Origin: a virus
IMG/VR virus record: IMGVR_UViG_3300025133_000066
Span: 1 to 64,000 of that record
DNA: 64,000 bases
Direction: 5' to 3' (one strand)
Each line of letters starts with the position of its first letter. Positions within the stretch are counted from its first letter, which is position 1. Both the position numbers and the translations under genes were made by a program. Under the pieces are notes generated by a model. That model was not told the DNA's origin. It ran no database searches and was given only the letters and a program-made list of their open reading frames with translations. Below, piece after piece: positions 785-54,140 of the stretch.

Positions 785-3442
785 TTATTTCTTACTCCTT
801 GTTTTCTGGCCACTATTTGAACTAGTGGAAAGTCCCGAACTTGCTGCATCTGCTGCTGATCCGAAATTAGAGCTTTTGCCCGCTAATCTTCGTTCCATAC
901 CTTTGGCAAAGAAATCAAACATATTTGATAAACTTGTTTTGCTCTCAATCATAAGTTCTATTTGTTGTACTCGATCTTTGTCTCGTGCATTTAAGGCCAG
1001 TGTAACTTGTCGGCCGACTTCCTTCCCAATCGTCTCGGCGTTTTCTCGTTGTTGGTCTCTTCGAGCTTTGTCAGCACCTTGGACGCCGCCGCCACCTATC
1101 GTTTTTGTGGTTGCAGTCGCGCTTATTCCCACATCGCCTCCGCCGAAGAAAGAAGATAAATACCCGAAAGCCTTTCCAGCTATACCGCCGACCGAGAGGA
1201 GTTTTCCAAGTTGTTTTAGTTTTGTTATAAGGCTCCCTATGGCTTTCACTGGGGCCTTAAATACGGTGCCCATGGTTTTCATTAAGTCTATGACCCATTG
1301 GAGAGCCTCTCCAAGAGACAGGCTGTGTTTTGCAGTGATCGAGTCTTTTAGTGCTGTGAACCCGTCACTAAACGAATACAGCCAACTTACCAACTTCATC
1401 ACCCAAATCCCCAGTTTGATTATGAGTACAATAACTACTCCTATGGCGATGGGAATGATGTTCAACATCACGATGGCGGTGGCCAGTCCCGCCGTGATCC
1501 CGTATATTAGCGCCCGGAAGGCCTTCGATGTATTCCAGAGATGGTTTATCCGAAGGACAACGAGCGTAATGCTCTCAGCAAGTTCAATAAGAAAAGTTCC
1601 AACAGTAAGAATTGCGTCGGCTAACTGATTCATAAAAAATGCTCCTATTGCCTTCCATACTCCTGCGCCCTCGCCGGCACTCCATGTCATTTCATTCCAA
1701 GCCTCAGTGAGTTCCTCAAACCGGGGTTGTAAAGGTTCGAGGATCTTTCCGATATAAGCCATTATGTCATTCCAATATACAAATACTTGAATAAGGGCGT
1801 ATATGATGCCGATTAATGGCATCGCGGCGGAGACTATAAGCAGTAACCCCAATTTAAGCGCTGACATTGTTAAGTTAGTGCTATCAAAAATATCTCCCAA
1901 ATTTCCCAGATAAGAATACAACATCGCCATGGCTATGATGAATGCGGAGATAGCAGCAGTGGCTGCCTGGAAAGCGGCGAAGGTGCCGCCGGAGGCAATT
2001 GCGATGGAAACGGCGATGGCCGTCATCGCAATGGAGATCGCTACGGCCAGCGCGGCGAAGGCCACTTTAACAACGGGGAAATAATTAACTAATTGAATGA
2101 AGCCACCTAGCATTTTCTTTATACCCATAATAACTGGGCCCATTTGAACCGCAAACATACGCATCACCTGTCTTCCAACATCAGCGACAGTATTGAATTC
2201 TTGAGTTTGTAATGCCAGAGCTTCAATTTCTGATGAGGTTTTCGCCACATTATCTCCAACAAGATTAAATTTGCCAGCCATAACCAAGGCCAGTTCGTTG
2301 ACATCTGAAAGACCCATTGCATCTGCGGTTGCTTTTCTTTCATAATAACCCATTGTGTCAAATGATTTTCCCGCCTGTCTGGTGGCGTCTGAAAGCATTT
2401 TCATTCTATCTGTAGGATCGGTTTTTCTTAACATTTCCAATGAACTAAGATAAGGACCACCAAGAACCGCGTTCAACTTTCCAACCGAATCAGCGGCGGA
2501 TCCGAATTCGTCGAATTTCTCTGTGATTCTCAACATCGCGTCAACGGACATTCCTGCTGCCTTGGCGTTCCTTGCCATTTTATTAAAAACATCTGCGCTT
2601 TTATTTCCGAAAGCTGCAAGTCTTGGCAATGCTGCATTAAATTCTTTCGACATTTCCGATGGAGGCTTTCCCATGGCCTGAGCTAAAACAAACATTTCTC
2701 TTTGGGTCTTGGTGGCCTGATCCATACTCATTCCAAGGCCCATGGTTAAAGAATTAATATTTGATGTAGTAGTATCGGCATCTACACCCAGTTCTTGTAA
2801 GGTAGCCGTTGTGAGGGCTAGGGATTTTTGAGATTTTCCGGACATTGTATGCAAGTTGCCCACATTTCTAACCATTGATCCATATGATTCTGCCACATCT
2901 TCTATGGTAATATTATTTCTAAATTGCTCCTTTTCAAGATTTACCATCTGGTGTTGATACATTCTTAGGGCGCCAGTTGATTTATTAAAGTTTACCATGG
3001 CGCGGTCTGTAGAAATGGCCAAGTCCGCAGATGATTGTATCATTTTCTGCATGACATTGTTTATTAAATTCGCGGGATGAAAAGTTTTCTTCAACTGTTC
3101 TTTGAACTTTCCTTGTGCAACGGTACTGCTCATCATGTTGGATAGTTGACCAGCGAGAGTATCATTGAAATCTTTATTTATTCCAATAAGTTTGCCGAGG
3201 CCCTTGGCTAATTCTGTGCCCGAGGCGGTGGCAGCCTTAAGCGCTGCGGCCTCAGCATCTATTGCGGAGATGGTTCTCCCAGAAGAATCTACAAAATTCT
3301 CTCTTTCTTCATTTAGTCTTATCAGGGCCGCTGTCTCGGCCTCGGTGGCTTCTCCTGAGGCCAGTTTTTCTGCAATTAGGGATTTTAACGCATCTCTTTC
3401 CGCGTCAATGTGTTCTATTGTTCTGGTATCGTCTTCTGCCAT
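785..3442 (-). CDS. Tail tape measure protein
   Basis: An 885-residue protein, the longest in the tail operon, between the tube and chaperone genes and a hub-like gene, which is the classic tape measure position. Residues 1-330 are helical and Ala/Met/Lys-rich. Long hydrophobic stretches at about 452-512, 528-557 and 645-685 match the transmembrane-like segments of tape measure proteins, which take part in DNA passage through the host membrane. The C-terminal 60 residues are polar and basic. At the family rule of about 1.5 angstrom per residue the tail would be near 130 nm, longer than in T4 (gp29, 590 residues). The start is ATG with AGGAA about 11 bases upstream. The long opposite-strand frame over its 3' third is a shadow. 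Confidence 0.85.
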   Translation of the reverse strand: MAEDDTRTIEHIDAERDALKSLIAEKLASGEATEAETAALIRLNEERENFVDSSGRTISAIDAEAAALKAATASGTELAKGLGKLIGINKDFNDTLAGQLSNMMSSTVAQGKFKEQLKKTFHPANLINNVMQKMIQSSADLAISTDRAMVNFNKSTGALRMYQHQMVNLEKEQFRNNITIEDVAESYGSMVRNVGNLHTMSGKSQKSLALTTATLQELGVDADTTTSNINSLTMGLGMSMDQATKTQREMFVLAQAMGKPPSEMSKEFNAALPRLAAFGNKSADVFNKMARNAKAAGMSVDAMLRITEKFDEFGSAADSVGKLNAVLGGPYLSSLEMLRKTDPTDRMKMLSDATRQAGKSFDTMGYYERKATADAMGLSDVNELALVMAGKFNLVGDNVAKTSSEIEALALQTQEFNTVADVGRQVMRMFAVQMGPVIMGIKKMLGGFIQLVNYFPVVKVAFAALAVAISIAMTAIAVSIAIASGGTFAAFQAATAAISAFIIAMAMLYSYLGNLGDIFDSTNLTMSALKLGLLLIVSAAMPLIGIIYALIQVFVYWNDIMAYIGKILEPLQPRFEELTEAWNEMTWSAGEGAGVWKAIGAFFMNQLADAILTVGTFLIELAESITLVVLRINHLWNTSKAFRALIYGITAGLATAIVMLNIIPIAIGVVIVLIIKLGIWVMKLVSWLYSFSDGFTALKDSITAKHSLSLGEALQWVIDLMKTMGTVFKAPVKAIGSLITKLKQLGKLLSVGGIAGKAFGYLSSFFGGGDVGISATATTKTIGGGGVQGADKARRDQQRENAETIGKEVGRQVTLALNARDKDRVQQIELMIESKTSLSNMFDFFAKGMERRLAGKSSNFGSAADAASSGLSTSSNSGQKTRSKK

Positions 3443-3813: not shown

Positions 3814-4683
3814 TTATGAGTTATCTGTGCCGGTGGGTTGGACTACTGGAATTATTTCGTCTTCTTCGTTTTCGTCAGTTGCGGGGGTGTCGGGCTTATT
3901 CGAATCGGCTGCTGGGTCTGCTAGGAGATTTGTTTTTTCGTCTGGGCCGATTCCCAAAGCCCCGATATTGAATACCATTTTTGCTTCTACAATTTCAGAA
4001 TCTCCATATGCCAACTCGCCTAAATCTAAACTTATGGGAGTTATATTATAATAAGTAATCTGAGTTTTTTCTGAAGTAACCCCAGGCCGGAAGAAAGGTT
4101 TTGGCAGTTCATCTAGTTCCTTGGCGACAAGGGGATCGTAATGTCTCGCTGTCGTTGTCGAACTAACCAACGTTACGACTATTCTAGATTTTTTTCTGAA
4201 ATATTCTTGGACGGCTAGTGTGCCCGTTCCTCCGGTTTGAAAGATAACTGGCGCCGATTTACCGATCGGCATTCCATTACTGTCCTTTGATGTGAAATCT
4301 GCATAATAAGTAAAATAAGCTTGTCTCAAAGATAATGCCAGAGCCCTTGTTAAATAAAAGGTAATAGTAAGATCATCGATCTTCGCGTCCTGAGCCTGGA
4401 GAGAAACTGAATCGTTTGTGTTCATGGCACCCATTTTATTCTCAAAGGAACCCAATTGTGTAGTGGGGAGATCGATGGACTTAATCAGATGTTGGGCTGG
4501 TCGCCAAGGCCTGGGATTTGAAATAGTACCATCCCTATTGATGCGGCCCTTGTAAAGATGTAAATCAACAACAAATTTAAATTTTTGAACCGGTTCTTGG
4601 ATCTCAGAATTATAGTTATACGGATCAATATCTGTCCACAGCGCGATGTGTTGCTTTGTTCCCGATATACTCCTCTTGGTCAT
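3814..4683 (-). CDS. Tube-like tail/baseplate protein
   Basis: A 289-residue product from the ATG at 4681-4683, which has AAGGA nine bases upstream. An in-frame upstream start at 4722 would add 13 residues but lacks a good SD, so I prefer the shorter form. The middle (LIKSIDLPTTQLGSFENKMG and later AKIDDLTITFYLT) is beta-rich and similar in style to the gp19-like tube proteins of this window, and the segment SLDLGELAYGDSEIVEAKMVF resembles a tube-fold C-terminal strand. The last 35 residues are acidic and Pro/Asp/Glu-rich. Likely a tube terminator, tube initiator or baseplate tube protein of the T4 gp48/gp54 kind. The fold assignment is inference from pattern. Confidence 0.65.
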   Translation of the reverse strand: MTKRSISGTKQHIALWTDIDPYNYNSEIQEPVQKFKFVVDLHLYKGRINRDGTISNPRPWRPAQHLIKSIDLPTTQLGSFENKMGAMNTNDSVSLQAQDAKIDDLTITFYLTRALALSLRQAYFTYYADFTSKDSNGMPIGKSAPVIFQTGGTGTLAVQEYFRKKSRIVVTLVSSTTTARHYDPLVAKELDELPKPFFRPGVTSEKTQITYYNITPISLDLGELAYGDSEIVEAKMVFNIGALGIGPDEKTNLLADPAADSNKPDTPATDENEEDEIIPVVQPTGTDNS

Positions 4684-4702
4684 GATAAAATATTCCTTTA
4701 CT

Positions 4703-4711
4703 CTAAATAGT
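4703..4711 (-). promoter_or_regulatory. Late-promoter-like element, variant
   Basis: Minus-strand ACTATTTAG, a partial match to the ACTATTTATT element found before many genes here. It lies about 20 bases upstream of the preferred start of the tube-like gene. This is one of the weaker copies. Confidence 0.3.
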
Positions 4712-4732
4712 AAAAAATCCAAGAAATATAGT

Positions 4733-4912
4733 TTATCTCTGGGATTTTTTCATTTGGTCTGCTTCTTTTTGAATTTCTTCTGCAAGTCTCTTTAAAAACC
4801 ACCTGCGAATCAAGACGGGAAGGTTGTAGGCTTCCATAAAGCTCCACCCTCCGTAATATTTCATTGCAAAGAATTCTTCATAAACATTTTTTATGTATTC
4901 ATCACTTAGGCC
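4733..4912 (-). CDS. Frameshift extension of the tail assembly chaperone
   Basis: This frame encodes 59 well-formed residues from GLSDEYIKNV to the end, with YYGGWSFMEAYNLPVLIRRW in the middle. It begins exactly where the upstream gene ends, +1 (equivalently -2) relative to it, and has no plausible start of its own: the only in-frame starts are a TTG at 4991-4993 deep in the upstream coding sequence and an internal ATG at FFAMKYY. The junction is a run of seven T. A shifted ribosome would make a product of about 339-340 residues. This mirrors lambda G/GT and P2 E/E', in which a longer chaperone form is made by frameshifting just before the tape measure gene. The frameshift is inference; the frame and the slippery run are directly visible. 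Confidence 0.7.
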   Translation of the reverse strand, partial: GLSDEYIKNVYEEFFAMKYYGGWSFMEAYNLPVLIRRWFLKRLAEEIQKEADQMKKSQR

Positions 4913-5753
4913 AAAAAAAGTCCGTAGTAAACGGCACCTCCAGGACCGTTCGATAATTACAGTTATCACACTCAAAGTCGTGTGACATATCAATATTGGG
5001 AGTATTTCTTGCGTAAACCGCCCTCAGATAATGGAGATCTTTTGCTGGGACTCCGCCGATGAATTCATCCAATATACTTTTAGAAGAATCTTTATTAATA
5101 GAAACTATGATTGTCTTAAGTGTATCTGTTAAGATTGTTTCTAACAACTTCTTTTTTTGTTTAGACTGCTGAAGTCTGGCTAGGTGCATTTCTTCTTTAC
5201 CAGTTAATAGTTTTACTTCGACTTCTATTTTTGTCAAAGGCAAATTGATGAGCATTGTGTTTTCTTCTGTCCAGGTGACTTCTTCATCGTCCTGAATCGG
5301 CTCTGCCACCACTTCCGAAAGATCATACTCATAATCTCCAGTTTGCATGCACGAAGGACAGCTTATTTTTGTGTTATATTCTGGCCCGTAACCCGTTATT
5401 CGAGAAGCAATCAATATTGCATTTCTATCTCCGGTAAGCATATCGCCTGGCCTGATTCTCTTATCAACAATAATACTCTTAAGGAGTCTTTCTAGGGCGA
5501 CACCCTGCTTTATAAGTGTCTTAGAAGATAAAATGTCTTCTTCTTTTGCAGTCATATATTTAATTTCAATTGTTTCTTCACCACTCAAAGGATGATCGGG
5601 TGGATAAAACCTTCCTTGCGATGGTAATTCCACAAAATCCGTTGGTGTTGCAAAATTAAGTCCTCCCTCTGTCAGCGCTGCAACAGAGTCAGGAGTTGAA
5701 GGGGTTGAAGGCTCTAGGTCTTTGCCGAGCCTCCCCTTAGTATTTCTAGCCAA
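4902..5753 (-). CDS. Tail assembly chaperone / gp26-like baseplate protein (unshifted product)
   Basis: A 283-residue protein from a TTG start (MARNTKG...) with AGGTGA five bases upstream. The opening FVELPSQGRFYPPDHPL, the central KEEDILSS...LIKQGVALERLL and GDRNAILIASRITGYGPEY segments match the T4 gp26-like base plate family. Two Cys pairs (C132/C135 and C262/C265) suggest a zinc-binding site. The gene lies between the tube and the tape measure, the place of the tail assembly chaperone in many tailed phages, and it ends in a run of seven T followed by TGG CCT AAG TGA, where a shift opens a 59-residue extension. Roles proposed: holding the tape measure during tail assembly, or baseplate hub assembly. 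Confidence 0.75.
   Translation of the reverse strand: MARNTKGRLGKDLEPSTPSTPDSVAALTEGGLNFATPTDFVELPSQGRFYPPDHPLSGEETIEIKYMTAKEEDILSSKTLIKQGVALERLLKSIIVDKRIRPGDMLTGDRNAILIASRITGYGPEYNTKISCPSCMQTGDYEYDLSEVVAEPIQDDEEVTWTEENTMLINLPLTKIEVEVKLLTGKEEMHLARLQQSKQKKKLLETILTDTLKTIIVSINKDSSKSILDEFIGGVPAKDLHYLRAVYARNTPNIDMSHDFECDNCNYRTVLEVPFTTDFFWPK
4913..4919 (-). other. Slippery run of seven T (probable programmed frameshift site)
   Basis: In coding sense the codons are GAC TTT TTT TGG CCT AAG TGA. Slipping +1 or -2 on the T run gives TTT TTT GGC CTA AGT and enters the open 59-residue extension; the remaining frame stops at once at TAA. Mu uses a -2 shift and lambda a -1 shift at the equivalent gene. 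Confidence 0.65.
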
Positions 5754-5805: not shown

Positions 5806-6375
5806 TCACTCAGCTTGACTTCCGCCGAAGATACCCTTGCTTCCGCCGGCTTCCAATTCAGCCCAATCATATCTAAATGTCATAGAAATTTCCGTTAAGT
5901 CTTCAGAAGTATAATCCAAATCACCGAATCCCAATTTTGTCAAAAATGCGTTATTTAGTGTCCACTTTTCGATTTCACTTCCTACTGAATCAATTTGAGA
6001 AATTATAACTCGGAAAGCATGTATTTTGGAGGGAGAGGAGGGATTTACAGCGGCATTTTTAGGACCAAGATAGCCCATATTTTCAAGCAATTTGGTGGTT
6101 GCTCGTGCACCATCTGGCATAACGGGATCAACCAGTACTAGATTAACCTCATTCCACTCTACTGTACCAGGATAATAAAATTTATGGGCCATAAAGTTAA
6201 CTTCACCAGTATTAATGGTTATTTCAGGCTTATCGACAGTTTTCGCAAACCAAATTACACCAGCAGTCTCTAGGGCAGTTCCTGTTGCGGCCCCAGAAGC
6301 TAGCTCAACTTTAAATCTATATTTTCTTTTCGGATCGACTTCCGCGCTTGTCCAAAATTCTTTAGCACCTGCCAT
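5806..6375 (-). CDS. Tail tube protein (gp19-like)
   Basis: A 189-residue protein just downstream of the sheath gene, as in T4 (18 then 19). It starts KEFWTSAEVDPKRKYRFKVE, typical of tube proteins. The middle contains WFAKTVDKPEITINTGEVNF and WNEVNLVLVDPVMPDG, the beta-strand and loop pattern of the gp19 family. It is slightly longer than T4 gp19 (163 residues). It should form the hexameric rings of the inner tail tube. The start is ATG with GGGAG upstream. Confidence is high from both sequence style and position. Confidence 0.9.
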   Translation of the reverse strand: MAGAKEFWTSAEVDPKRKYRFKVELASGAATGTALETAGVIWFAKTVDKPEITINTGEVNFMAHKFYYPGTVEWNEVNLVLVDPVMPDGARATTKLLENMGYLGPKNAAVNPSSPSKIHAFRVIISQIDSVGSEIEKWTLNNAFLTKLGFGDLDYTSEDLTEISMTFRYDWAELEAGGSKGIFGGSQAE

Positions 6376-6419: not shown

Positions 6420-9278
6420 TTAATCCTCAAAACCTGCACCCTGATTTGTAATTACAAAATCAAGTGCGATAAACTCGATTGCTTTGGCGGGCTTCAGGAA
6501 AATTTTGGCATACATAATATTACGATCAACCAAATCTGGTGTAGTTGTTGTATTATCCAAAACCAACCTGTAATCACTCAAGCCCAGTCTTGTTTCTACA
6601 CTTGCCAAGAACGGCTCTGCGATTGCCTTGAACCTATTCCAAGTAACTTCGACATTCTGGTCAAACAAGATAGTGTTGGCAAAAATGGATATTTGCTTCT
6701 TAACAAAAATCAACATTCTCCTAACATTAATTCTATCTAATGCAGACGGGGTTACTTGAAGAGTTTTCTGTCCGAAGATTACGATTCCCTCATTCGGGAA
6801 AGATGCAATCGGATTAATGTTCGCATCGTAAAGTGTGTCACGATTTTTTGAAGTCAATCTTTGACTAACATTCAAAACAGGCAAGCCTGACGAACCGCCA
6901 GATAGACCACCGCGATTAAACCCAGCCGGTGCAAACCAAACTTCTGAAACTGCATCAGAGGAAGCGAGTGTTCCCAGGACGACAACAGAAGGGGGTACCC
7001 ACAAACGATTGTTTGAGGTAACTGTATCTTGAATCTGAACCCATGGATAATAAGTACACCCGTAGGAACTATCAATCTGCCTTTGCTCTAAATTCAAAAC
7101 CGCCTGAGAAACGGTTCCCGCTCGACTAGCAGGATTGGAATATGCTGCGGCAGTTTCAGTAAATGGTGTATAAACTTCGGGAATGTCGATGAGTGCTAAT
7201 GCGTCGGCCCTGTCTTCGCAGGTTTCAATAAGATTTGTTGTAATGTTTGTATTAGTAATGCCTGGAATAGTTACCATATTACAATTAATTGTTTCGGGAT
7301 CCGCGATAACTTCTATAGCGGTCCTAAGTGTATTCATTGCGTAATTGGTATTTCTATTTGGGGTGTCATCTAACAATTTATTTCTAAACGGCTCGATTTC
7401 TACGATCTCCAATCCGTCAAACCCGCCGTATAGTGGCGCGGTGAAACGAGTCCATCCAGAGTCTATAACATCTCTCCAACTTCCTGTGGCGGAATACGAG
7501 GTACCCGCTGCTCTACTTGAAGCTGAGTAGTGAGCATAATTTTTACCAAGCGGCTGGACCACATCATCTAACGAAAATCTCCACATTGGCTCTACCATTG
7601 TGTCAGTAACGGCTGCTGGAAGAGGGTATACATAATCTGGATATCCGGTTCCAGGGACGGAACTGGCATACGCCAATGTTGAATTCTCTAAATAGGGTGT
7701 GGCTGTCATGCCGAAATAGGCATCCGTTTCGGCATATAAATTGCCGGCAGAAGATGAATTCCTGAGTATCATTTCTGGGAATTTTAATGATGCCGAATAG
7801 TCGGTAATAACCGATCCTGTGGCGATCATATATCCTGTGCCGGCTGCTAAATCATCTGGAGAGGTGGTGGTGTCTTCTACGATCGTCGCAGGATCGATAG
7901 ATGTGCTGACATCAACATCTACAAATTTGTCTGGGCCGTTTACTCCAAATGGTAGGAAATCCGCATTTGCGATACCATTTCTAACGGTATCGTTAACTTC
8001 TACTCTTACATATTTAGATGCATTCGGATATTCTCCATACTCTCTCATTAATTTTACTGATTGATCCCAGACACTATACCTATCACCAATTTTCTTTGCA
8101 ATGTAATTATCTGATAACGGATTTAAGTTAACATTTGAAAATCGCTCTACAATTTTAACAACCTTGTCAGTATCATCTACCTTACGAAGAACGACGGTAA
8201 ACGAACCATAATTGTTTGTGCCAGTTGTACTTCTTGAATAAGTGAGACCCTGAATGGAAACTTTTATATTATCTTGAACCCATTTTCCAGGTTCTGTTGC
8301 ATGAAGTCTAAATAGTTTCTGCATATTCTCTGGCTGATAGGATGCCGTTGCAGTTGATAGATCTTGTGAGAAGAACCAACCGGTTTTTGCCTTTGTAAAA
8401 TCTTGTGTGTAGTCTGCTTTAGCCGCCAAGTCGAATGGCATTATCAAACCATATGAACTATCATTAAGATTTCCTAAATCAAGTTGCTTTTGGATGAAGG
8501 ACTCATAAGTCTCTCCGAGCCAATAAACACTTTCCCCGAGGTTATAAGAGCCGGCCGGCAAAACACCGCCTAGTGTCTGGGGGTTTGTATTAAATACTTT
8601 TCTAATAAATGTTCTAGAAGAAGGATCAAAGTTGAAGGTTGTCTTATAAACTTCGGCGCCAGTGGTGTCTTTAATATAAGCCTGATAGTCGGGGCCCTTT
8701 GAAGAACCAATATCGCTAGATGGGTCGATTAGTCCACCGACACCACCAACCAGAGTGGCTCCTCCTGCAAGAGTTCCGGAAAGCCCTACGGCTCCCCCAT
8801 TATATATATACCAAATTGCAGCCAGATAGGCATTCTTGGTGCCCGAACCCGATTGGCACAGATACATCCCATATGCACCGGCATTTGATAATACCGAGCC
8901 GGATACATCACCTTGGACAGCCCAGCCGGCCTCCCCTCCTGTACCGACATCTTCACTAGCTAATCCAGCTAGTCTAACAATGCTCATAGAATCGGTACTA
9001 TTTCTTAAATAAGCCTGTGCGGCGTATGAGGCATAAGTTGGACCTTGATAGTTTCCGGTGCGCCACACATCTCCTGTTGCTTTTCCCGGAACAGGATTGC
9101 CAAACACTTCAACAAATTGAGAAAAAGAATCAATCTTTACTGGTTCCATTGCTGGGCCTTGTGGCAGTCTACCTATAACTATTGGGCCCGAGGGTGTCTC
9201 AACTGCTGGCAGTTGGGAATTGTCGATCTCTCGCGTAAATACGCCTGGGGACACAAATTTAAATTTTTTAACTGACAT
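6420..9278 (-). CDS. Contractile tail sheath protein (gp18-like)
   Basis: A 952-residue sheath protein. The N terminus (FKFVSPGVFTREIDNS...TPSGPIVIGRLPQGP) and the C terminus (VTWNRFKAIAEPFLAS, then LGLSDYRLVLDN and a final FIALDFVIT segment) are the conserved ends of phage sheath proteins that form the inner contractile layer. It is about 300 residues longer than T4 gp18 (659), and the extra length lies in the middle, which is Gly/Ser/Thr-rich and likely forms surface-exposed insertion domains. The ATG start has GAGGAG upstream, and a late-promoter-like element sits about 40 bases before it. It is followed by the tube gene. Confidence 0.95.
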   Translation of the reverse strand: MSVKKFKFVSPGVFTREIDNSQLPAVETPSGPIVIGRLPQGPAMEPVKIDSFSQFVEVFGNPVPGKATGDVWRTGNYQGPTYASYAAQAYLRNSTDSMSIVRLAGLASEDVGTGGEAGWAVQGDVSGSVLSNAGAYGMYLCQSGSGTKNAYLAAIWYIYNGGAVGLSGTLAGGATLVGGVGGLIDPSSDIGSSKGPDYQAYIKDTTGAEVYKTTFNFDPSSRTFIRKVFNTNPQTLGGVLPAGSYNLGESVYWLGETYESFIQKQLDLGNLNDSSYGLIMPFDLAAKADYTQDFTKAKTGWFFSQDLSTATASYQPENMQKLFRLHATEPGKWVQDNIKVSIQGLTYSRSTTGTNNYGSFTVVLRKVDDTDKVVKIVERFSNVNLNPLSDNYIAKKIGDRYSVWDQSVKLMREYGEYPNASKYVRVEVNDTVRNGIANADFLPFGVNGPDKFVDVDVSTSIDPATIVEDTTTSPDDLAAGTGYMIATGSVITDYSASLKFPEMILRNSSSAGNLYAETDAYFGMTATPYLENSTLAYASSVPGTGYPDYVYPLPAAVTDTMVEPMWRFSLDDVVQPLGKNYAHYSASSRAAGTSYSATGSWRDVIDSGWTRFTAPLYGGFDGLEIVEIEPFRNKLLDDTPNRNTNYAMNTLRTAIEVIADPETINCNMVTIPGITNTNITTNLIETCEDRADALALIDIPEVYTPFTETAAAYSNPASRAGTVSQAVLNLEQRQIDSSYGCTYYPWVQIQDTVTSNNRLWVPPSVVVLGTLASSDAVSEVWFAPAGFNRGGLSGGSSGLPVLNVSQRLTSKNRDTLYDANINPIASFPNEGIVIFGQKTLQVTPSALDRINVRRMLIFVKKQISIFANTILFDQNVEVTWNRFKAIAEPFLASVETRLGLSDYRLVLDNTTTTPDLVDRNIMYAKIFLKPAKAIEFIALDFVITNQGAGFED

Positions 9279-45005: not shown

Positions 45006-48000
45006 TTAATCCTCCTCCGATGGTGGTATTGTCGGAGTGAAGCCCGAACTAGGACCAATGTCTCTTTTCTGTATATCTATATTTGCTACCACTCCCGCTT
45101 GTACGGCAGCGGCGGAGTTCTTATTCTGCGCGGCGGATGAGGCATTTGCTTGGCCAACATCTGTGTTTAAGTCTGGTGGGAGGCCAGTGGTGGAAACCGG
45201 TGCTGTTTTTGCGAGTGCTGCCAAACCATCATCTCCATAAGAAACAGTTGCATCTATTTTGGCAAATTCAACCATTGAGAAATAATCATAAGGCCAGTTG
45301 TAGCCGAATACCAATTGATCTTCCGCAGATAACGCCGATGTTTTTTTGGTAGATTCGGCAAGATTATCATAATAATTAGTTTCCGCTCTCTGTTTTACTT
45401 TGAATACCATCCACCGTACTTCATCTTGTAAATCCTTCAACATTTGTTTATTTTTTAAAAGAGGATGAGATATTGTTGCAGTTGATTCTTTAAATTGAGT
45501 TCCAAATTTCGGAGCAATGTTTTGCCATATATAAGATAGATCATTTTTATCGAATGTGTGTTCAAATTCAAAAATATACATTGCGACAGGCTTTGCGCTT
45601 AAGTTTCTAATAAAATCAAATTCAGGCGGGAAAACATATTTATTTTTAATTTTATCTGCCATTTGAAGAACATCTTCATCCACCAGCATTTTATCAGAAA
45701 GATCTTGAGAAATCCCCGAAACATATTCTGCCCAACTTATATTTGCAAAAGGAAGAGAGGGAAAACGATCTTCGATGGGCGCTGACGACCATGCTATTGA
45801 ATAAACATCATTTGTTGGAAGTTCGAAAAACGACCTCCTAGCAAGATTTCCAATTTTAATTTTTTTAGCTGTCTTTTTGATGTTTACCACAAAAGGAACA
45901 GCCACAATAGCTTCGTAAACCGTTCTTGAATCTGAGAGTTGCCCAAGTTTCTTGGTGTTTTTTGCCTGTCTTACCGGACGTCCTGGATTTTGTTTTGGAA
46001 TAAATCCGAGGTTCTGCGCCAAAGACTTTACATCGCCGCCATTATAAAAGGCCGTTATATCGGAATCGTCGGCGCGAGTCTCTAACCAACTTCGGTCGAT
46101 ATCGGCAACTTCAAGAAAAATTCCCTTATTTTCTTCCGGAATTAATCCAAATTGATGCCACATACCAATGGGAGTTGTAGTAATTCCTCCATATCCTTCC
46201 CACGGCTCTTCTGCACCTGTACCCGTTGTCGGAGTTGCAATAACATCAAAGTTTAATGGTCTCTCTGTGGTGTCTCCGAAATTCATTATTGGTGTTTCAA
46301 ATTTAGTTTGAATTGTCCACCTGAGAACATTTGTTGACGGATCCGCATCTGATGGGACATACTCTTTTTGAAATATGTTTAAAGAGGAGCTTAATTGCAT
46401 CGCAAAGCCGTTGACATTATCTTTGTACATTGGATATCCAGTTCCCGAGCCCGTGCTTGGCCAAGATTCAATGCTTGGGATGACCATCGAATCGAGATTC
46501 TTTTTATCGATTCTCCAATATTTTAAAGCGGCATCATTAAATATTTGATCTAGAGTGGGGGTGCCATCGGCAGACGCTTCATATATAATATCTAGCCAAG
46601 CTTCTCCATTATAATAGGGGGGAGTGTGAGAGGGGTAATATCCTTGTGTTGCATCAGCAAGAGAATAATTATTGGGGCCCGTATTTACAGTGGCTCCTGT
46701 ATTCCTGTCTACATTTGGGGCGCCGGCTACCGGTGGCCCAAAAGCAGATGGTCTGGAATACATAGTCATAGTCTCAAAGTTATCGTTGTTAAAAAATAAG
46801 TCCTGAGGATATGGATGTTGATTCCCGGCACCGCCACCGAAACCGCGATTACCTACCGTCGATCTATACATTTTAATTCTCATCCCGTAAAACGAGCCAG
46901 ATTTCAATGGAATAAAATTATCTTCTGATACAGATGAGATAGAACTTAGGGATTCATTTTTTAAGAAGAATTTAGGTACCTCACCCAAGAAATTGTTTAT
47001 CATTAGTTTGTAAGGGTTTCTTGGATCTGTTGGGGCGTTCCTTATTTCTGTCCAAAACTTGCCAGTATTGGCGGAGGAACTAGCACTCGCAGATGGGTGG
47101 GGCTCCATATCATATATCTTAATATCAAAATCATCAAACGATTCTGGCTCCAACAGTGCCTCAAACGGCACCCTATAATCCCACGCATCGCCTCCTCCGG
47201 GCCCAGAGCCGACACCAACTAAATAATAGTCACTATCATCAGTTGTGGAGCCGACTCCTCCCGAGTTTGCAATTCTGACCGGCGTCCAATCATCTGTATA
47301 AATTGGATAATCAACTGCCACCCCGGATTTGATGGTATTAAACATCACTCCTGGTGCAAACATTGTTGCCAGAATGGGCCTATATTTTAAAATATCCACA
47401 TCTGCGGGTAGGCCATACTTGTCATCGGGAACAATTGCGGACTCGTCTAAAAATGAAGTTTTAAATTCTTTAGCGATTTCCAAAGTTCTTTCGACAGGAT
47501 AAAAGCCGTCATAAGGAATAAATTTCATTAATGCTTTGCAAGAAAGAGTTAGATTCTTTGGCAAGCCCGTAAATTGATCGTGCTCATCGGAAATAACTTC
47601 AAAATATTCCATAAAATCTGAGAAAGAATAAATTTTGTAAAAATCGGGTTCGGAGCTATTCTGTGGGGTGTTATCTGATGTTTGGATAGCATATGAGGCG
47701 CCATTTCCATCTATGGTGGTATATAAGACTGTTTGAATATTGTCCTCATTGACTCCAAAAATTGAAAATGACGCGGAGTTATTTGAATTAAAACCGTCTG
47801 ATATATATTTTTGAATATGATCGCTTATTCTAAATTCTGGGATTAAGGACATATCTTTGTTTTTTAATCTCATATTAAGATTGTATAATTCATATTTATC
47901 ATAAAATGGTGTTGATGGAGAAGAAACAAAAGATCCGTCTTCAACATAACCAGCCAATGTGTGGGCTTCAAATTTAGCATTTCCCCCAAAGATAGAAAGA

Positions 48001-51000
48001 TGACCCAAGGAATTAAATAATGAAACACTTGGCCAGTTATTTCCCGTTATTTCATTAGCCATCAAATAATTAGAAGATGTTGCAACAGCCCTCAAAGATG
48101 CTGGGCCCGAGCGATTCAACGAGGAGTGTATGCTTCCCAGCGTATGTTTTCTAGCATAAGTCGGAGAAGGCTTTAGATCTGCTTGAAGCCCGGTAACGGC
48201 CTGATTGAATAACCTAAAAGCAAATGTATAGTCATTTTGAAGCTCTCCTGCGGCGCCAATAGATGCACTTTCGGCTATATATGTCGAAAGGCCTGTTCCA
48301 AATTGCTCGGCAGTGTCAATGGACCAAGCGCTTTGGGAAACCACAAATCCTTGTGAATTTTCTCCTCCTCCGAATTTAGATTCGCCAAGAGTTGTTCTAT
48401 CTAATCTGGAATCTCTCCAAAAAGTATTTTGATATCCAACCCTTGCTCTATTTCTGGTGCTGTAACAATTAATGGCTGCTGGGTATATTTGTTCTCCATA
48501 GGCAAAATAATCAATTCCCTGTATAGGATTATTTATATTAAGCAGGGCGCCATTTGTATACAAAGATAGAATGCGTTCATAGGAGGTCGTAACATTGTCA
48601 TTTGTTATGTTTAGATCTGTCGAAATCGCGCGATTAGCAAAAAATGTTTTTTCACTTCCGTAGGAACTATTGATTTTTATGGTTGCTAAAGAAGGGGTAT
48701 AGGGCCCCGAGGTTAAGTTTGGAGTTGCCGTTGTTAATATATGTCTTAGTGGCTTGTATTTGGAAATAATAGGAGGATCTTCTCTCAATTTAAAGCTGTC
48801 ATTTTCCAAATTATATGCAGTTATATTCGAGCTATTCCACTTTTTAACCAACGGATTTTCGTTTCCTCGAATTTGTTTCCACGAAGGATGTTGATAGGGG
48901 CCATTGCGCTTTAATAATATAGCATTTAATAGTGCAGCAGGGCCGGCATCATAATCAAATGCATCTTGATTAGTAAACCCATCTGGAATTAGAGCGGAAT
49001 TCACATAATCTGAAATATTTGCAGCCGAGGGCCCATATCCTATGAAAGAATTTGAATATTCCAAAGGCTCGTAAACATTATAATTAAGCCAATTATAAAC
49101 CGTTGGAATATAGTAGCTCGAAGTAAAAGAATAAGAGCCGCCTGTACCCAATACGGGCAACGAATTTTTATCAAAGCCAAAGACATAAAAATTCTGTGCT
49201 GGTGGACCTGCAAAGGGGTTTTTTTGATAATGTATTGATACATAATCACTCGCAGAAGAGAATGTCACCAAATCCCCCTCTCCGCTATAAGGAAGATACC
49301 CAAATGTATCATAGGAAATAGCCGAAGCTGTTATCCAAGCATACTGTAAATCTGTTCTTGGGATTGGATGTTGGACATAAAAGTTGTCATAGACCGATGC
49401 TGTAACCGTTGTTGCTCCAGAATCCTTCATTTGTTTGATCGGGTTGCGATTAACCTGATATATACTGCCGGTTCCGTCATAATTTAATGAATTAACTGAA
49501 GAAGAGCCAACACCGATGTTAAATGTATCGGCATAATACCCAAATTGGTTTACATGCGATGCCAGCAAAAGCCTATAAGGATCTCTTACGGCGAAATTTC
49601 TGTAATTAATATCATTATACACCGAAAATTCAGCAGCCTCTGGGTCCAAACCAGGACCGCCATCAGAATCGCCTGCTGTGGACGCGTCTCCCGGACAAGA
49701 AAACCGATTCACAAAGACCCATGCTGATCTTCCTCTTTGTAGTTTTACATAATCATCCAATCCGGCGACAAAAGGAGATGGAATTTCTGAAGCTTCGAAG
49801 CCTCCCGCTTTTACAAAGGCAGAATTGTTCTCGGTTCTTCCACAAGTTTGGACAATTTGATAATCTTGACTATAGTTTCCAAGCTCTCCTGTGGTCATGT
49901 TATCTTTGATATTCTTAATATTGAGAGATCTTTTTGCTACCAAATCTCGATAAAACACGGCTCGGGGCGAATTCACAGGCTGATGTACAAATTTCATCGC
50001 TGTTGGGCCGGTCTGAAATTCTAATGCCCATGCTTCTGGTCGGTCTGTGACAGTATCCGTACCCTGATTAAGAGGAATATGTCTGTGTTGGTTTCCGCCA
50101 ACCCACTTCTCAGTAAATGGGCCCTGTAACGGCACCTCATAATCTTCATATGAATCAATATGCAGGTTATTTACTCCAAATCCTGGTTTGAAGTCTGTAT
50201 TTATCTTGCTATTGTACCCCGTCGTAACGGATGAACTAACTGGGACGAATGGGGCTAGGAAATCACCTTCACCAGTCGCATAGCCAGATTCATCAGCCGT
50301 ATTTGTAGCCTCAAAAGAAAATTTCTTCTTTAAATGAGGATCTAAAACATCGTTACAGTCTTTAAGTCCCTTTACCTGAGATTCTCGGATGATGACTCCG
50401 GAAGAATTTCCAAATTGGATAGCACTTTTTACATTCGTTCTGATATTATTATTATTCGAAGTTAGGCCGCCGTGGATATCATTAGATCTTATAATATTTA
50501 ATTTAAGGGGTGTAGAAAGTTTTCTATTCAAAGCTGAAAGTGTGACTGATAGGATTTGTTCTTTATCGGCATCAACTCCTGCATCGCCAGTAGCTAATGG
50601 TGCTTTATTTCTCTCTGCTTTTTCTTTCCACCAAAAACATGACTCATTTTGAGCATCAGAAACTGGGTGGTGTCCATATTCCCAGTTATATAACATCTCG
50701 TTGATTCCGCGCGCGGCGGCTTCAGGATCATCTTGCTTTAAATCAACAGTTGGATATTTATTCCAATATTTATTTCGCTCTAAAATGTGACTTTCGACAA
50801 CGGTTCTTATTCCATCCTGCTTAACAACACTGGCAGGGAACAAATCCATTATCATTTGGCCCAAAGAGCTATCAATCCACTTATAATACTCGATATATCT
50901 CTCTATATCGGGCTCATTTTGAACTTTTTCAAAAAATAAATGTCTTAATTTTTGGAGATCTTTATATTCTTGACGATATCTGTTAACCGGGTTGCCGATT

Positions 51001-54000
51001 AAATTATTAAAATCTAAAATTGTTGCGAAATAATTGATAATTTGTTGAGTTATCGCGCGATACATGCTTTTTTCTACCATAAAGTAGAAACTAGATGGCC
51101 TTGTCTGCTTTGTAAAAAGTTGATCATCCTCAATATTAAAAACTTTGACCGTATCGTAAGAATTAACAATTTCCGGAGTTGTTTGCTGGGCAACTGGAAC
51201 AAATTCCATGTTTATAATACTCGTATCATTGGGATAAAAGAGATCTCCTCGCCCAGTATGTTGAGATCCTAAAACATTTCCCAACCAATCATATCTTTGG
51301 CGTGTAATCGCAGATCCAGAGGAGAAATCAACTATATTAAAGCCAGCATCTGGCACAGTTGACACTCCTCCGCCGGCATCAGTAGTTGTTATTTGATCGA
51401 AGCTCCAGTGGAGAGCCAACGTCTCCATTTGTGGTATTTCTACATTTCCAATTGATGTAACAAAATTATATGTATTTTGATAAGGAGAATATACTCCAAA
51501 ATTATCATTGTCGCGGGCATGCGACTTAATGACAGAATTATTAAGGTAACTCATCCAATATCTCGTGGATGAAAACTTAAGATCTGAACTCTGGATAAGA
51601 GAGCCCGTGAAATTTTGCCTATGTGCCCCCATATACACCCTTTTGGGTGTCGTCAACAGCTTGTCACCGTCGACTGCGATTGAAGAAGTTAATATTCTTT
51701 CTTCTTGGACAACATCAACTATGGTATTAAGTGCATATAACTCTACAAGATAGTTTGTTATTGTAGAACCAGACACAAGATCCGCGTCTGTTTTCTCTGG
51801 AGATACTCTTAGGGCCAGATTCCACTTCTTATTATCATAAAGATCCTTTATGATCGAGCTTCTTTCTTCAATTCCGAAAAAAGAACTCGTAATCATAAGG
51901 TGGCCGTCCTTAATATTGCTATTTGTGGCGGGCCTTATGGCATATACTTGCAAATCATAATCGGTTGCTGGCCAAGTAAAGTCAGTTGGGGCTGTAGAGT
52001 CTGCCGAATGGAATCCAAAGATTGAAGATGTGATAAACGGAGTGGGATAATATACATTATTGCTAATAATCTTCTTTTTGGGAAATATAACTTCTGTTTC
52101 ATAGGTAAAAGAAGTATAAGTTTCTAAAGTTCCTCCAGATGCTGATATAAAAGATACCGAATCTGGGTTTCCAGAAGCAGTCTGTTGATAAATCGTGCCT
52201 GCGAAGTTGTCAGGCTTATAAAAGTCTATGAATTTTTTCTTTGTCGACGAAAAATCATAATTTTCATTTAGATTATAAACAAGATTGTTGGCATATGCGT
52301 TAATTTTTATTAAATTTTCATCTACGCCATAACAACGGATTAGTTGCTTAAAAGATCTTGAAGTGCCCTTCGATTTATAAATATCAACTATATTATTATA
52401 GATATTTTTATAAATCATATTCTTTGTATCAAACAAGCTGTCCGCGAACTCTTTTTTCTCATCTCTATTGAAGATCTGATTTATCACAGATGAATCTACG
52501 AATATTTCTGGTGCGACGAGACCAACGCCTTCCAACAACTCTCCAGCGAAAGGTATTGGCTTATCACCGGAACTTACATAAGAAATGTTCTTAATTTTAT
52601 TTATTTGTTCTATCTGCAAATGAAGAGTGTCAAAATAGCTGGACATAATTTGAGTTAGGCGCTTTAATTCTCCATCGCTGTCGTTGTCACCATCTATAAT
52701 CCAATTTGGGAAACCATTATATAGAGATGTTGTATTATTATAATCATGATATGAGCCAGATGCCAACATTTCTGTCAAAACGGTTTGAACTGCTGGATTT
52801 TCGGGATAGATAATCGGATCTTTGAATTCGGATGCTGCCGCGTTTGCCTCTACCATCGCTGAATCTGTTGTTCTGGAATTTGTGGTATAACCTGTCCATG
52901 ATCCATTTGAAACGCGGCCAGAATAATCGAGGACGCTAGAATCGATTGAATTAATTCCGGAGATTCCTTCATTAAATTTGTAATAAACACCAAGAGTTGT
53001 ATTTGCTATATCTGTATTGGTTCCTCCGTAAACTTGTGTGAACCAATATCGACTAATGTCTTCCGAAGTTCTCTGGGTTTTCCAATAGCGGAATTCATCA
53101 AGGGAGCCGGTTAATTTACCATCGCCAAGAATTGTGTCCGAGCCAGGATAATTAGCAACCAATGCCCCAATGTTGGCTTGCAGGGATCCCGTTATCTCAA
53201 CGGGCTGGGATCCAACAATAAGATCTGTTTCTACTAAATTTCCGTTTAAATATAGCCTCCACAGGGCATCAGAGCCAGTATTTGCATAAGATACTGCAAA
53301 ATGATTCCACGATCCACTTGTCGTGGCAAAATAAGAAGTTATGTCTTCAAAGAAGATGTTATCAACGCCGTCTCCCCTAAATAGGCAGTCAAGATAAGTT
53401 GTTGTGCCATCCCGGTCGCGGGCCAACGATATATTAAATCTTCCGTCATTTGAGCCGCTTAAATCAAAAATCGTCTCATAAGTGTGATATGTTGGAAGTG
53501 CAGACGCAGGAGGGGCCCATGTCGGCTTCTTTAACCAAAATTCTACTGTTACACCATTGTCCGGATCACATTTGAGATTACTCTCTCTCGTTCCTTTCCC
53601 CGTAAATCCAACATTATCATAAATATCTGTGTCGTAAATGTTTGAATCATCGAAGGTTTCATGAATCGGCTTTCCAATCATTCCTTGGGAAGCAGTGTGG
53701 GGGCCCGCGTATAAATGAATGTATTCTAGGGGTACTGATGTTGGCCAGAATTTGATGCCGCCGTCGTCGTTGTAGTCAATTCCTGCATAACCACCCTCTC
53801 CGTGGTTTATATATCCATTTCTTCTTGGATATTTATTATCCAATAACCATAGGTCGATATATGTTGACTCATTTAGGAATTCTTGTTTTTCTTTTGAGGA
53901 TCCGTCATAAGGATATTCTTCATAAATTCTTGTTATGGCATCTTGATAATATTGTTCAGCAGATCCATATCTGGCGAAGTTTTCTGGATTTGAAAAGTCT

Positions 54001-54140
54001 ACTTGGGGAATAAATCGATTTTTATTTTTCCAAGTCTCTGTAATATTTTCTAGAGATTCTCCATCCTTTCGTATATTTTCGGGTGTTTCTGAAAATATTT
54101 GGGATGGGTTGTCGCCATCAAAAAGGTTTCTTATACTCAT
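45006..54140 (-). CDS. Giant baseplate/fibre protein with LamG domain (3044 residues)
   Basis: The largest gene in the window. I use the ATG at 54138-54140, overlapping the preceding stop (ATGA); an upstream in-frame start at 54164 adds eight residues. A LamG/concanavalin-like domain lies at about 190-370 (GVTVEFWLKKP, SGSWNHFAVSY, LYLNGNLVET, LTGSLDEFRYWKTQRTSED), a fold that often binds sugars. The rest is long, beta-rich and Tyr/Asn/Ser-rich, with many short segments of virion type. By gene order (after gp6) it occupies the position of T4 gp7 and neighbours, but is three times as long as gp7. Likely baseplate wedge or fibre with possible receptor-binding regions. Confidence 0.75.
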   Translation of the reverse strand: MSIRNLFDGDNPSQIFSETPENIRKDGESLENITETWKNKNRFIPQVDFSNPENFARYGSAEQYYQDAITRIYEEYPYDGSSKEKQEFLNESTYIDLWLLDNKYPRRNGYINHGEGGYAGIDYNDDGGIKFWPTSVPLEYIHLYAGPHTASQGMIGKPIHETFDDSNIYDTDIYDNVGFTGKGTRESNLKCDPDNGVTVEFWLKKPTWAPPASALPTYHTYETIFDLSGSNDGRFNISLARDRDGTTTYLDCLFRGDGVDNIFFEDITSYFATTSGSWNHFAVSYANTGSDALWRLYLNGNLVETDLIVGSQPVEITGSLQANIGALVANYPGSDTILGDGKLTGSLDEFRYWKTQRTSEDISRYWFTQVYGGTNTDIANTTLGVYYKFNEGISGINSIDSSVLDYSGRVSNGSWTGYTTNSRTTDSAMVEANAAASEFKDPIIYPENPAVQTVLTEMLASGSYHDYNNTTSLYNGFPNWIIDGDNDSDGELKRLTQIMSSYFDTLHLQIEQINKIKNISYVSSGDKPIPFAGELLEGVGLVAPEIFVDSSVINQIFNRDEKKEFADSLFDTKNMIYKNIYNNIVDIYKSKGTSRSFKQLIRCYGVDENLIKINAYANNLVYNLNENYDFSSTKKKFIDFYKPDNFAGTIYQQTASGNPDSVSFISASGGTLETYTSFTYETEVIFPKKKIISNNVYYPTPFITSSIFGFHSADSTAPTDFTWPATDYDLQVYAIRPATNSNIKDGHLMITSSFFGIEERSSIIKDLYDNKKWNLALRVSPEKTDADLVSGSTITNYLVELYALNTIVDVVQEERILTSSIAVDGDKLLTTPKRVYMGAHRQNFTGSLIQSSDLKFSSTRYWMSYLNNSVIKSHARDNDNFGVYSPYQNTYNFVTSIGNVEIPQMETLALHWSFDQITTTDAGGGVSTVPDAGFNIVDFSSGSAITRQRYDWLGNVLGSQHTGRGDLFYPNDTSIINMEFVPVAQQTTPEIVNSYDTVKVFNIEDDQLFTKQTRPSSFYFMVEKSMYRAITQQIINYFATILDFNNLIGNPVNRYRQEYKDLQKLRHLFFEKVQNEPDIERYIEYYKWIDSSLGQMIMDLFPASVVKQDGIRTVVESHILERNKYWNKYPTVDLKQDDPEAAARGINEMLYNWEYGHHPVSDAQNESCFWWKEKAERNKAPLATGDAGVDADKEQILSVTLSALNRKLSTPLKLNIIRSNDIHGGLTSNNNNIRTNVKSAIQFGNSSGVIIRESQVKGLKDCNDVLDPHLKKKFSFEATNTADESGYATGEGDFLAPFVPVSSSVTTGYNSKINTDFKPGFGVNNLHIDSYEDYEVPLQGPFTEKWVGGNQHRHIPLNQGTDTVTDRPEAWALEFQTGPTAMKFVHQPVNSPRAVFYRDLVAKRSLNIKNIKDNMTTGELGNYSQDYQIVQTCGRTENNSAFVKAGGFEASEIPSPFVAGLDDYVKLQRGRSAWVFVNRFSCPGDASTAGDSDGGPGLDPEAAEFSVYNDINYRNFAVRDPYRLLLASHVNQFGYYADTFNIGVGSSSVNSLNYDGTGSIYQVNRNPIKQMKDSGATTVTASVYDNFYVQHPIPRTDLQYAWITASAISYDTFGYLPYSGEGDLVTFSSASDYVSIHYQKNPFAGPPAQNFYVFGFDKNSLPVLGTGGSYSFTSSYYIPTVYNWLNYNVYEPLEYSNSFIGYGPSAANISDYVNSALIPDGFTNQDAFDYDAGPAALLNAILLKRNGPYQHPSWKQIRGNENPLVKKWNSSNITAYNLENDSFKLREDPPIISKYKPLRHILTTATPNLTSGPYTPSLATIKINSSYGSEKTFFANRAISTDLNITNDNVTTSYERILSLYTNGALLNINNPIQGIDYFAYGEQIYPAAINCYSTRNRARVGYQNTFWRDSRLDRTTLGESKFGGGENSQGFVVSQSAWSIDTAEQFGTGLSTYIAESASIGAAGELQNDYTFAFRLFNQAVTGLQADLKPSPTYARKHTLGSIHSSLNRSGPASLRAVATSSNYLMANEITGNNWPSVSLFNSLGHLSIFGGNAKFEAHTLAGYVEDGSFVSSPSTPFYDKYELYNLNMRLKNKDMSLIPEFRISDHIQKYISDGFNSNNSASFSIFGVNEDNIQTVLYTTIDGNGASYAIQTSDNTPQNSSEPDFYKIYSFSDFMEYFEVISDEHDQFTGLPKNLTLSCKALMKFIPYDGFYPVERTLEIAKEFKTSFLDESAIVPDDKYGLPADVDILKYRPILATMFAPGVMFNTIKSGVAVDYPIYTDDWTPVRIANSGGVGSTTDDSDYYLVGVGSGPGGGDAWDYRVPFEALLEPESFDDFDIKIYDMEPHPSASASSSANTGKFWTEIRNAPTDPRNPYKLMINNFLGEVPKFFLKNESLSSISSVSEDNFIPLKSGSFYGMRIKMYRSTVGNRGFGGGAGNQHPYPQDLFFNNDNFETMTMYSRPSAFGPPVAGAPNVDRNTGATVNTGPNNYSLADATQGYYPSHTPPYYNGEAWLDIIYEASADGTPTLDQIFNDAALKYWRIDKKNLDSMVIPSIESWPSTGSGTGYPMYKDNVNGFAMQLSSSLNIFQKEYVPSDADPSTNVLRWTIQTKFETPIMNFGDTTERPLNFDVIATPTTGTGAEEPWEGYGGITTTPIGMWHQFGLIPEENKGIFLEVADIDRSWLETRADDSDITAFYNGGDVKSLAQNLGFIPKQNPGRPVRQAKNTKKLGQLSDSRTVYEAIVAVPFVVNIKKTAKKIKIGNLARRSFFELPTNDVYSIAWSSAPIEDRFPSLPFANISWAEYVSGISQDLSDKMLVDEDVLQMADKIKNKYVFPPEFDFIRNLSAKPVAMYIFEFEHTFDKNDLSYIWQNIAPKFGTQFKESTATISHPLLKNKQMLKDLQDEVRWMVFKVKQRAETNYYDNLAESTKKTSALSAEDQLVFGYNWPYDYFSMVEFAKIDATVSYGDDGLAALAKTAPVSTTGLPPDLNTDVGQANASSAAQNKNSAAAVQAGVVANIDIQKRDIGPSSGFTPTIPPSEED

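Follow-up and report, generated by a model that had tools for sequence, protein, structure and literature searches.

A gp26-like gene and an open +1 frame at its 3′ end

The window analyzed here, a stretch of 64,000 nucleotides, comes from a virus record of 78,290 bases, in which T4-type genes for portal, capsid, terminase and baseplate wedge are also found. On the minus strand, a tail sheath gene (6420..9278; phrog_23 tail sheath, E=5e-64) and a tail tube protein gene (5806..6375; phrog_4542 tail tube, E=1e-23) lie upstream of a gp26-like gene for a short tail assembly chaperone (TAC-N / G-like), the zero frame of which spans 4902..5753 on the same strand and encodes 283 aa from a TTG start as listed. 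Two other genes lie between the chaperone gene and a putative tape measure gene of 885 aa (785..3442, minus strand), and the ORF list gives in this interval a gene of 302 aa, from TTG as listed (3814..4722, minus strand). The putative tape measure protein had no family match and no phage relative by tblastn, and the 302-aa protein had no family or phage match. The original prediction had placed the chaperone gene between tube and tape measure; its upstream neighbor is indeed a tube gene by phrog_4542, whereas only position and length point to the tape measure. At 952 aa the tail sheath protein is long, with sheath Pfam domains matching its C-terminal third only, and an ORF of 3052 aa is found near a baseplate wedge gene (window 45006-54164, minus strand).

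The gp26-like identity was borne out by profile search, as the core protein belongs to PF12322 (T4_baseplate), the family of T4 gp26 and gp51 (E=3.7e-14, 53.4 bits against a cut-off of 24.5), and also matches phrog_150 baseplate hub (E=1.1e-18). PF12322 was matched by 60/60 aligned relatives. An AF2 model of the core protein reached a pLDDT of 90, and Foldseek against BFVD retrieved phage hub assembly chaperone and baseplate hub proteins with E down to 8e-21, including the SP-15 hub subunit (E=8e-19), the ACP17 hub assembly chaperone (E=2e-9) and Aeromonas gp26 (E=1e-5), so that by these models the protein shares its predicted fold with other PF12322 members. Nothing significant was returned by a PDB fold search with the core and T4-type gp51 models, which were predicted separately; the HK97 tail assembly chaperone 2OB9 appeared there with E=5.3, probability 0.14 and an rmsd of 4.2 over 68 columns.

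Read on the minus strand, the gene ends in GAC (4922-4920) TTT (4919-4917) TTT (4916-4914) TGG (4913-4911) CCT AAG TGA (4904-4902), exactly as first described. The proposed frameshift site, TTT TTT TGG CCT in zero-frame codons (4908..4919, minus strand), has its only copy in the window here. The 59-residue open stretch past the seven-T run is also present as claimed: the +1 frame is open from GGC (4912) to 4736 and closes with a stop at 4735-4733, giving a TAC-C / gp51 C-terminus-like extension (4733..4912, minus strand) that begins GLSDEYIKNV, passes through LIRRWF and runs on to LKRLAEEIQKEADQMKKSQR. The −1 frame stays open for two codons only, as read in L002 and L003, which are near-identical to the window.

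Conservation of the junction and the −1 relatives

A scan of IMG/VR yielded 80 loci with 35-99% identity, and the junction was readable in 78 of them. A homologous extension in the +1 frame, a YTT codon before the slip and CCT as the fourth codon were all kept in 77 of the 78. The window's own junction 12-mer, TTTTTTTGGCCT, was found in 65 loci; TTTCTTTGGCCT occurred in 6, TTCTTTTGGCCT in 3 and TTTTTTTACCCT in 2, and TTTTTTTTTCCT and TTCTTCTGGCCT in 1 each. In all 77, the codon before the shift is TTT or CTT and the next base is T, and the preceding phenylalanine codon may be TTC; the site reads TTT CTT TGG in 6 loci and TTC TTT TGG in 3 (L031, L060, L061). The T run is broken to three or four T in 9/78 loci, which retain both the frame and the extension. 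Conservation, which the original prediction had proposed as a check, therefore held for the extension frame, but the conserved unit is YTT followed by T and not the run of seven T.

Codon choice at the site is also constrained. All 78/78 loci use CCT for the proline there, as compared with 30% of the other prolines of the same genes, and a proline codon five codons upstream uses all four forms; phenylalanine codons elsewhere in these genes are TTT in 77% of cases. The invariance of CCT is at least partly due to double coding, as CTN is needed for leucine in the +1 frame. Judged on sequence, conservation of the junction is far beyond chance. The extension measures 59-83 aa across relatives, apart from a few loci in which it is short or truncated, and evolves as a protein in the +1 frame, under purifying selection with a pN/pS of 0.35 (223 pairs). 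Protein conservation in this frame starts at the slip site itself.

The arrangement is not limited to IMG/VR. Microcystis phage Mel-JY01 and Flavobacterium phage immuto share it without a frameshift annotation, and it was found in 7/7 informative MAG contigs, six with TTT TTT TGG CCT and one with TTT TTT TTC CCT. Those MAG contigs that are named to a group belong to Bacteroidota, and they are probably phage sequence binned with hosts. SP-15, LIS04, GXN1 and LR756508 also have +1 extensions, at other sites. In SP-15, GXN1 and LIS04 (L084, L086, L087), which have Gram-positive hosts, the junction differs, with a CC-CGA-TT element coming after FF; slippage there possibly uses UUU-C or CCC-CGA, and the LIS04 site, UUU-A, allows poor +1 re-pairing, which counts against a +1 reading. 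Scans with PA5oct-type and SP-15-type queries returned few relatives.

A second group of relatives carries the extension in the −1 frame. In S-PM2 (L102:10472-11364), the annotated gp26 ends TCT TTT TTC GCA TAA, and gp51, annotated as a separate 57-aa gene, continues in the −1 frame. Cyanophage-type relatives from IMG/VR (L103-L182) have the heptamer TTTTTTC (T TTT TTC) in 80/80 loci, with the −1 frame open for about 59-66 codons. Structure 3′ of this heptamer was assessed by per-locus z-scores: the 50 nt downstream fold much better than shuffles (z −2.91 ± 0.26), 71% of the 48 unique loci scoring below −2, whereas windows elsewhere do not, and S-PM2 has a 14-bp stem (z −4.2). An RNAalifold consensus of the cyanophage 3′ region gave no common structure, probably because the stems differ between subclades. 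The S-PM2-type (Kyanoviridae) gp26/gp51 resembles the window's gene in its homologous core and extension, its junction at FF and its place beside the tape measure position, but differs in that T TTT TTC, with a 3′ stem, leads into an extension in the −1 frame and that the two parts are annotated as separate genes. The −1 arrangement was also seen in HTVC008M, ACP17, jumbo phages of PA5oct, XacN1 and Atu_ph07 types (PA5oct-type stem, z −2.7) and Vibrio phage VH7D (L223), a KVP40-like member of Straboviridae that, unlike T4, retains one gene carrying a −1 site, GAT TTT TTC GTA TAA.

The sole exception among the 78 loci, L070 (2523-2560), reads TTC TTC TGG CCT and has no YTT-T site. The −1 frame holds its extension, a heptamer of canonical form, A AAU UUC, lies one codon upstream, and there is no 3′ stem. 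A switch of direction within the +1 clade is plausible here, and an indel error may also account for the change of frame.

Direction of the proposed shift and alternative readings

We propose that this T4-type tail assembly chaperone gene uses a programmed +1 frameshift, a reading to which we give a probability of about 0.88 on the comparative evidence, and that one gene very probably provides both a short and a long chaperone for tail building. Most ribosomes would read ...D-F-F-W-P-K and stop, yielding the short protein (TAC-N). A minority would pause with the phenylalanine tRNA on UUU in the P site (4914..4916, minus strand) and UGG in the A site; the tRNA would then move one base forward, re-pairing from UUU to UUU, and reading would resume at GGC CUA to give D-F-F-G-L-S-D-E-Y..., a TAC-NC product with the 59-residue C-terminal domain. 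We infer that ribosomes really shift here, and likewise the shift rate and the pause at UGG. By analogy, the two products would divide the work as lambda gpG and gpGT do, forming a short/long pair of tail assembly chaperones, with many short and few long copies coating the tape measure and the extension recruiting tube subunits.

The closest mechanistic parallel is prfB (RF2, CUU-UGA), in which a P-site YUU slips one base forward to UUU; this slip and the slipperiness of UUU are summarized in PMC10274946. The corresponding YTT-T is present in 77/78 loci, CUU is a natural variant, and UGG is the presumed slow A-site codon. The two systems differ in that prfB has a stop in the A site where the window has UGG, and in that the purpose is autoregulation in prfB and would be a protein ratio here. 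There is also no SD element just upstream of the window's site: across the +1 clade, no anti-SD pairing peak was seen beside the slip codon, at −13 to −4. Weak SD-like peaks occur at about −16 to −19 and at −37 nt upstream of the slip codon; they are too distant for a prfB-like stimulator and may have a coding origin (E-V-P).

The canonical −1 signature (an X XXY YYZ heptamer, 3′ structure and an extension in the −1 frame) is lacking at the window's site. No conserved RNA structure was found 3′ of the site in the +1 clade (z −0.32, n=74), and the difference from the strongly folded −1 relatives (z −2.91) is as expected for +1 versus −1 sites. The original prediction, "+1 or −2, not −1", was right about the frame reached, and of its two directions +1 is favored. 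Slippage by −2 on the T run, which would add one more phenylalanine, reaches the same frame, would be permitted by the window's seven T and is used by Mu (PMC5009743). We nevertheless consider it very unlikely, as TTC TTT TGG (L031, L060, L061) and the GXN1 site TTC TTT CGT would each give a second-position mismatch with the frame relation unchanged, and L085 (AAC TTT CTA) fits +1 only. The natural occurrence of TTC TTT TGG and TTT CTT TGG, with the P-site UUU exchanged for CUU, the prfB codon, argues for +1, and the proposed likeness to Mu is thus one of frame only, since Mu shifts −2 (PMC5009743) and the window's site would shift +1.

Slightly less probable than −2 slippage is a slip of RNA polymerase on the T run that leaves some mRNAs one U short, to be read straight through. 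Most loci do have a seven-T homopolymer, yet the loci in which it is interrupted keep the same organization, and seven-base runs are short for efficient bacterial polymerase slippage. The extension could also be a small gene with its own start, like gp51, and not part of a fusion. The open stretch of the window's +1 frame that holds the extension does contain TTG and GTG codons 19-27 codons before the site, and the program-listed TTG ORF starts there at 4993, so that the claim of an extension with no start of its own holds for ATG but not for these codons; the cyanophage gp51 is annotated in just this way. However, in 34/78 relatives the interval from the previous +1 stop to the site contains no ATG, GTG or TTG, meaning that independent initiation is not the general explanation; conservation of the protein begins at the slip site, and in T4 gp51 both parts are truly fused, so we rate a separate gene a little lower still. 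An error in sequencing or assembly of the T run, which would make this one continuous gene, is hardly credible: homopolymers are error-prone in principle, but seven T recur in the independent contigs L002 and L003, across the 65 loci and in genomes of isolated phages, and the frame break persists where a C interrupts the run. Comparison with relatives has refuted the error, which the original prediction had named as one thing that would overturn it.

One junction in T4, cyanophage-type and Bacteroidota-type phages

Among known systems, T4 has the same core domain as the window's gene in a short and a long form, but as two paralogous genes on opposite strands and with no frameshift. T4 gp26 (208 aa) spans all of PF12322 and ends at the position that corresponds to FF in the window (...KEFFELL); T4 gp51 (249 aa) likewise spans it and continues, being core plus C-terminal domain. 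Both are listed as hub assembly chaperones, with gp51 essential and absent from virions (PMC3004832). By hhalign, the cyanophage −1 extension matches the gp51 C terminus (E=2e-14) and the window-clade +1 extension (E=6e-7), and a direct comparison of the window-clade extension with the gp51 C terminus was not significant (score 13.4, decoys up to 14.0). From these profile comparisons, the +1 extension corresponds to the gp51-unique C terminus, with homology running through the cyanophage homologues. The extension (window 4736-4888) also weakly matches Pfam DUF6760, with 3/60 relatives as fusions, and DUF6760 may be the long-form chaperone domain; neither PF12322 nor DUF6760 had a match in the control genomes.

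In a tree of the core domain, built without VH7D, Straboviridae gp26 and gp51 fall in one clade (96/92) adjoining the cyanophage genes, suggesting that a duplication probably took the place of the frameshift there. Jumbo phages with the −1 arrangement branch within the +1 group, which implies that the direction has changed at least once. Campylobacter phage CP220 apparently has two genes. Taken at the sequence level, three solutions exist at one junction: +1 in Bacteroidota-type phages, −1 at U UUU UUC in cyanophage-type phages, and two paralogous genes in T4.

Similar logic is known from other tails. In lambda (G/GT) and P2 (E/E′), as is proposed for the window's gene, a single gene located after that of the tube and close to the tape measure yields a short and a long product; lambda does this by a −1 shift, unlike the +1 proposed here, and no sequence relation between either and the window's gene was detected. 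Vandenendeviridae and Andersonviridae share the TAC-N/TAC-NC logic, a poly-T signal and a short downstream ORF misannotated as a gene, but their shift is −1 at a GTTTTT motif (PMC12846349). The G-T frameshift has been called conserved except in T4, with −1, −2 and +1 directions across phages and a very likely +1 in the haloarchaeal myovirus HSTV-2 (PMC5009743), and a two-gene solution is described for phage 0305phi8-36 (PMC2147016).

As far as we found, the conserved +1 version has no earlier description. Tail assembly chaperone genes of T4-like phages were reportedly identified by Vladimirov, Gautam and Davidson (Virology 2022, 566:9-15). PMC12846349 refers to that work for −1 signals of the poly-T kind in T4-like TAC-N genes, which makes the T4 side of our argument at least partly known.

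In conclusion, it is rather likely that a T4-type clade, mostly of Bacteroidota phages, has a conserved +1 signal, YUU-UGG-CCU, with no need for a nearby SD or 3′ RNA structure, and that the junction has moved among +1, −1 and gene duplication, even inside the clade (L070). The site would be a widely conserved natural case of +1 shifting in bacteria, a process that, according to PMC10274946, lacks a general motif. Our findings also suggest that the cyanophage "gp51" genes are misannotated extensions. Finally, one junction with three solutions predicts that gp26 acts as the short and gp51 as the long chaperone, a testable role for both proteins.
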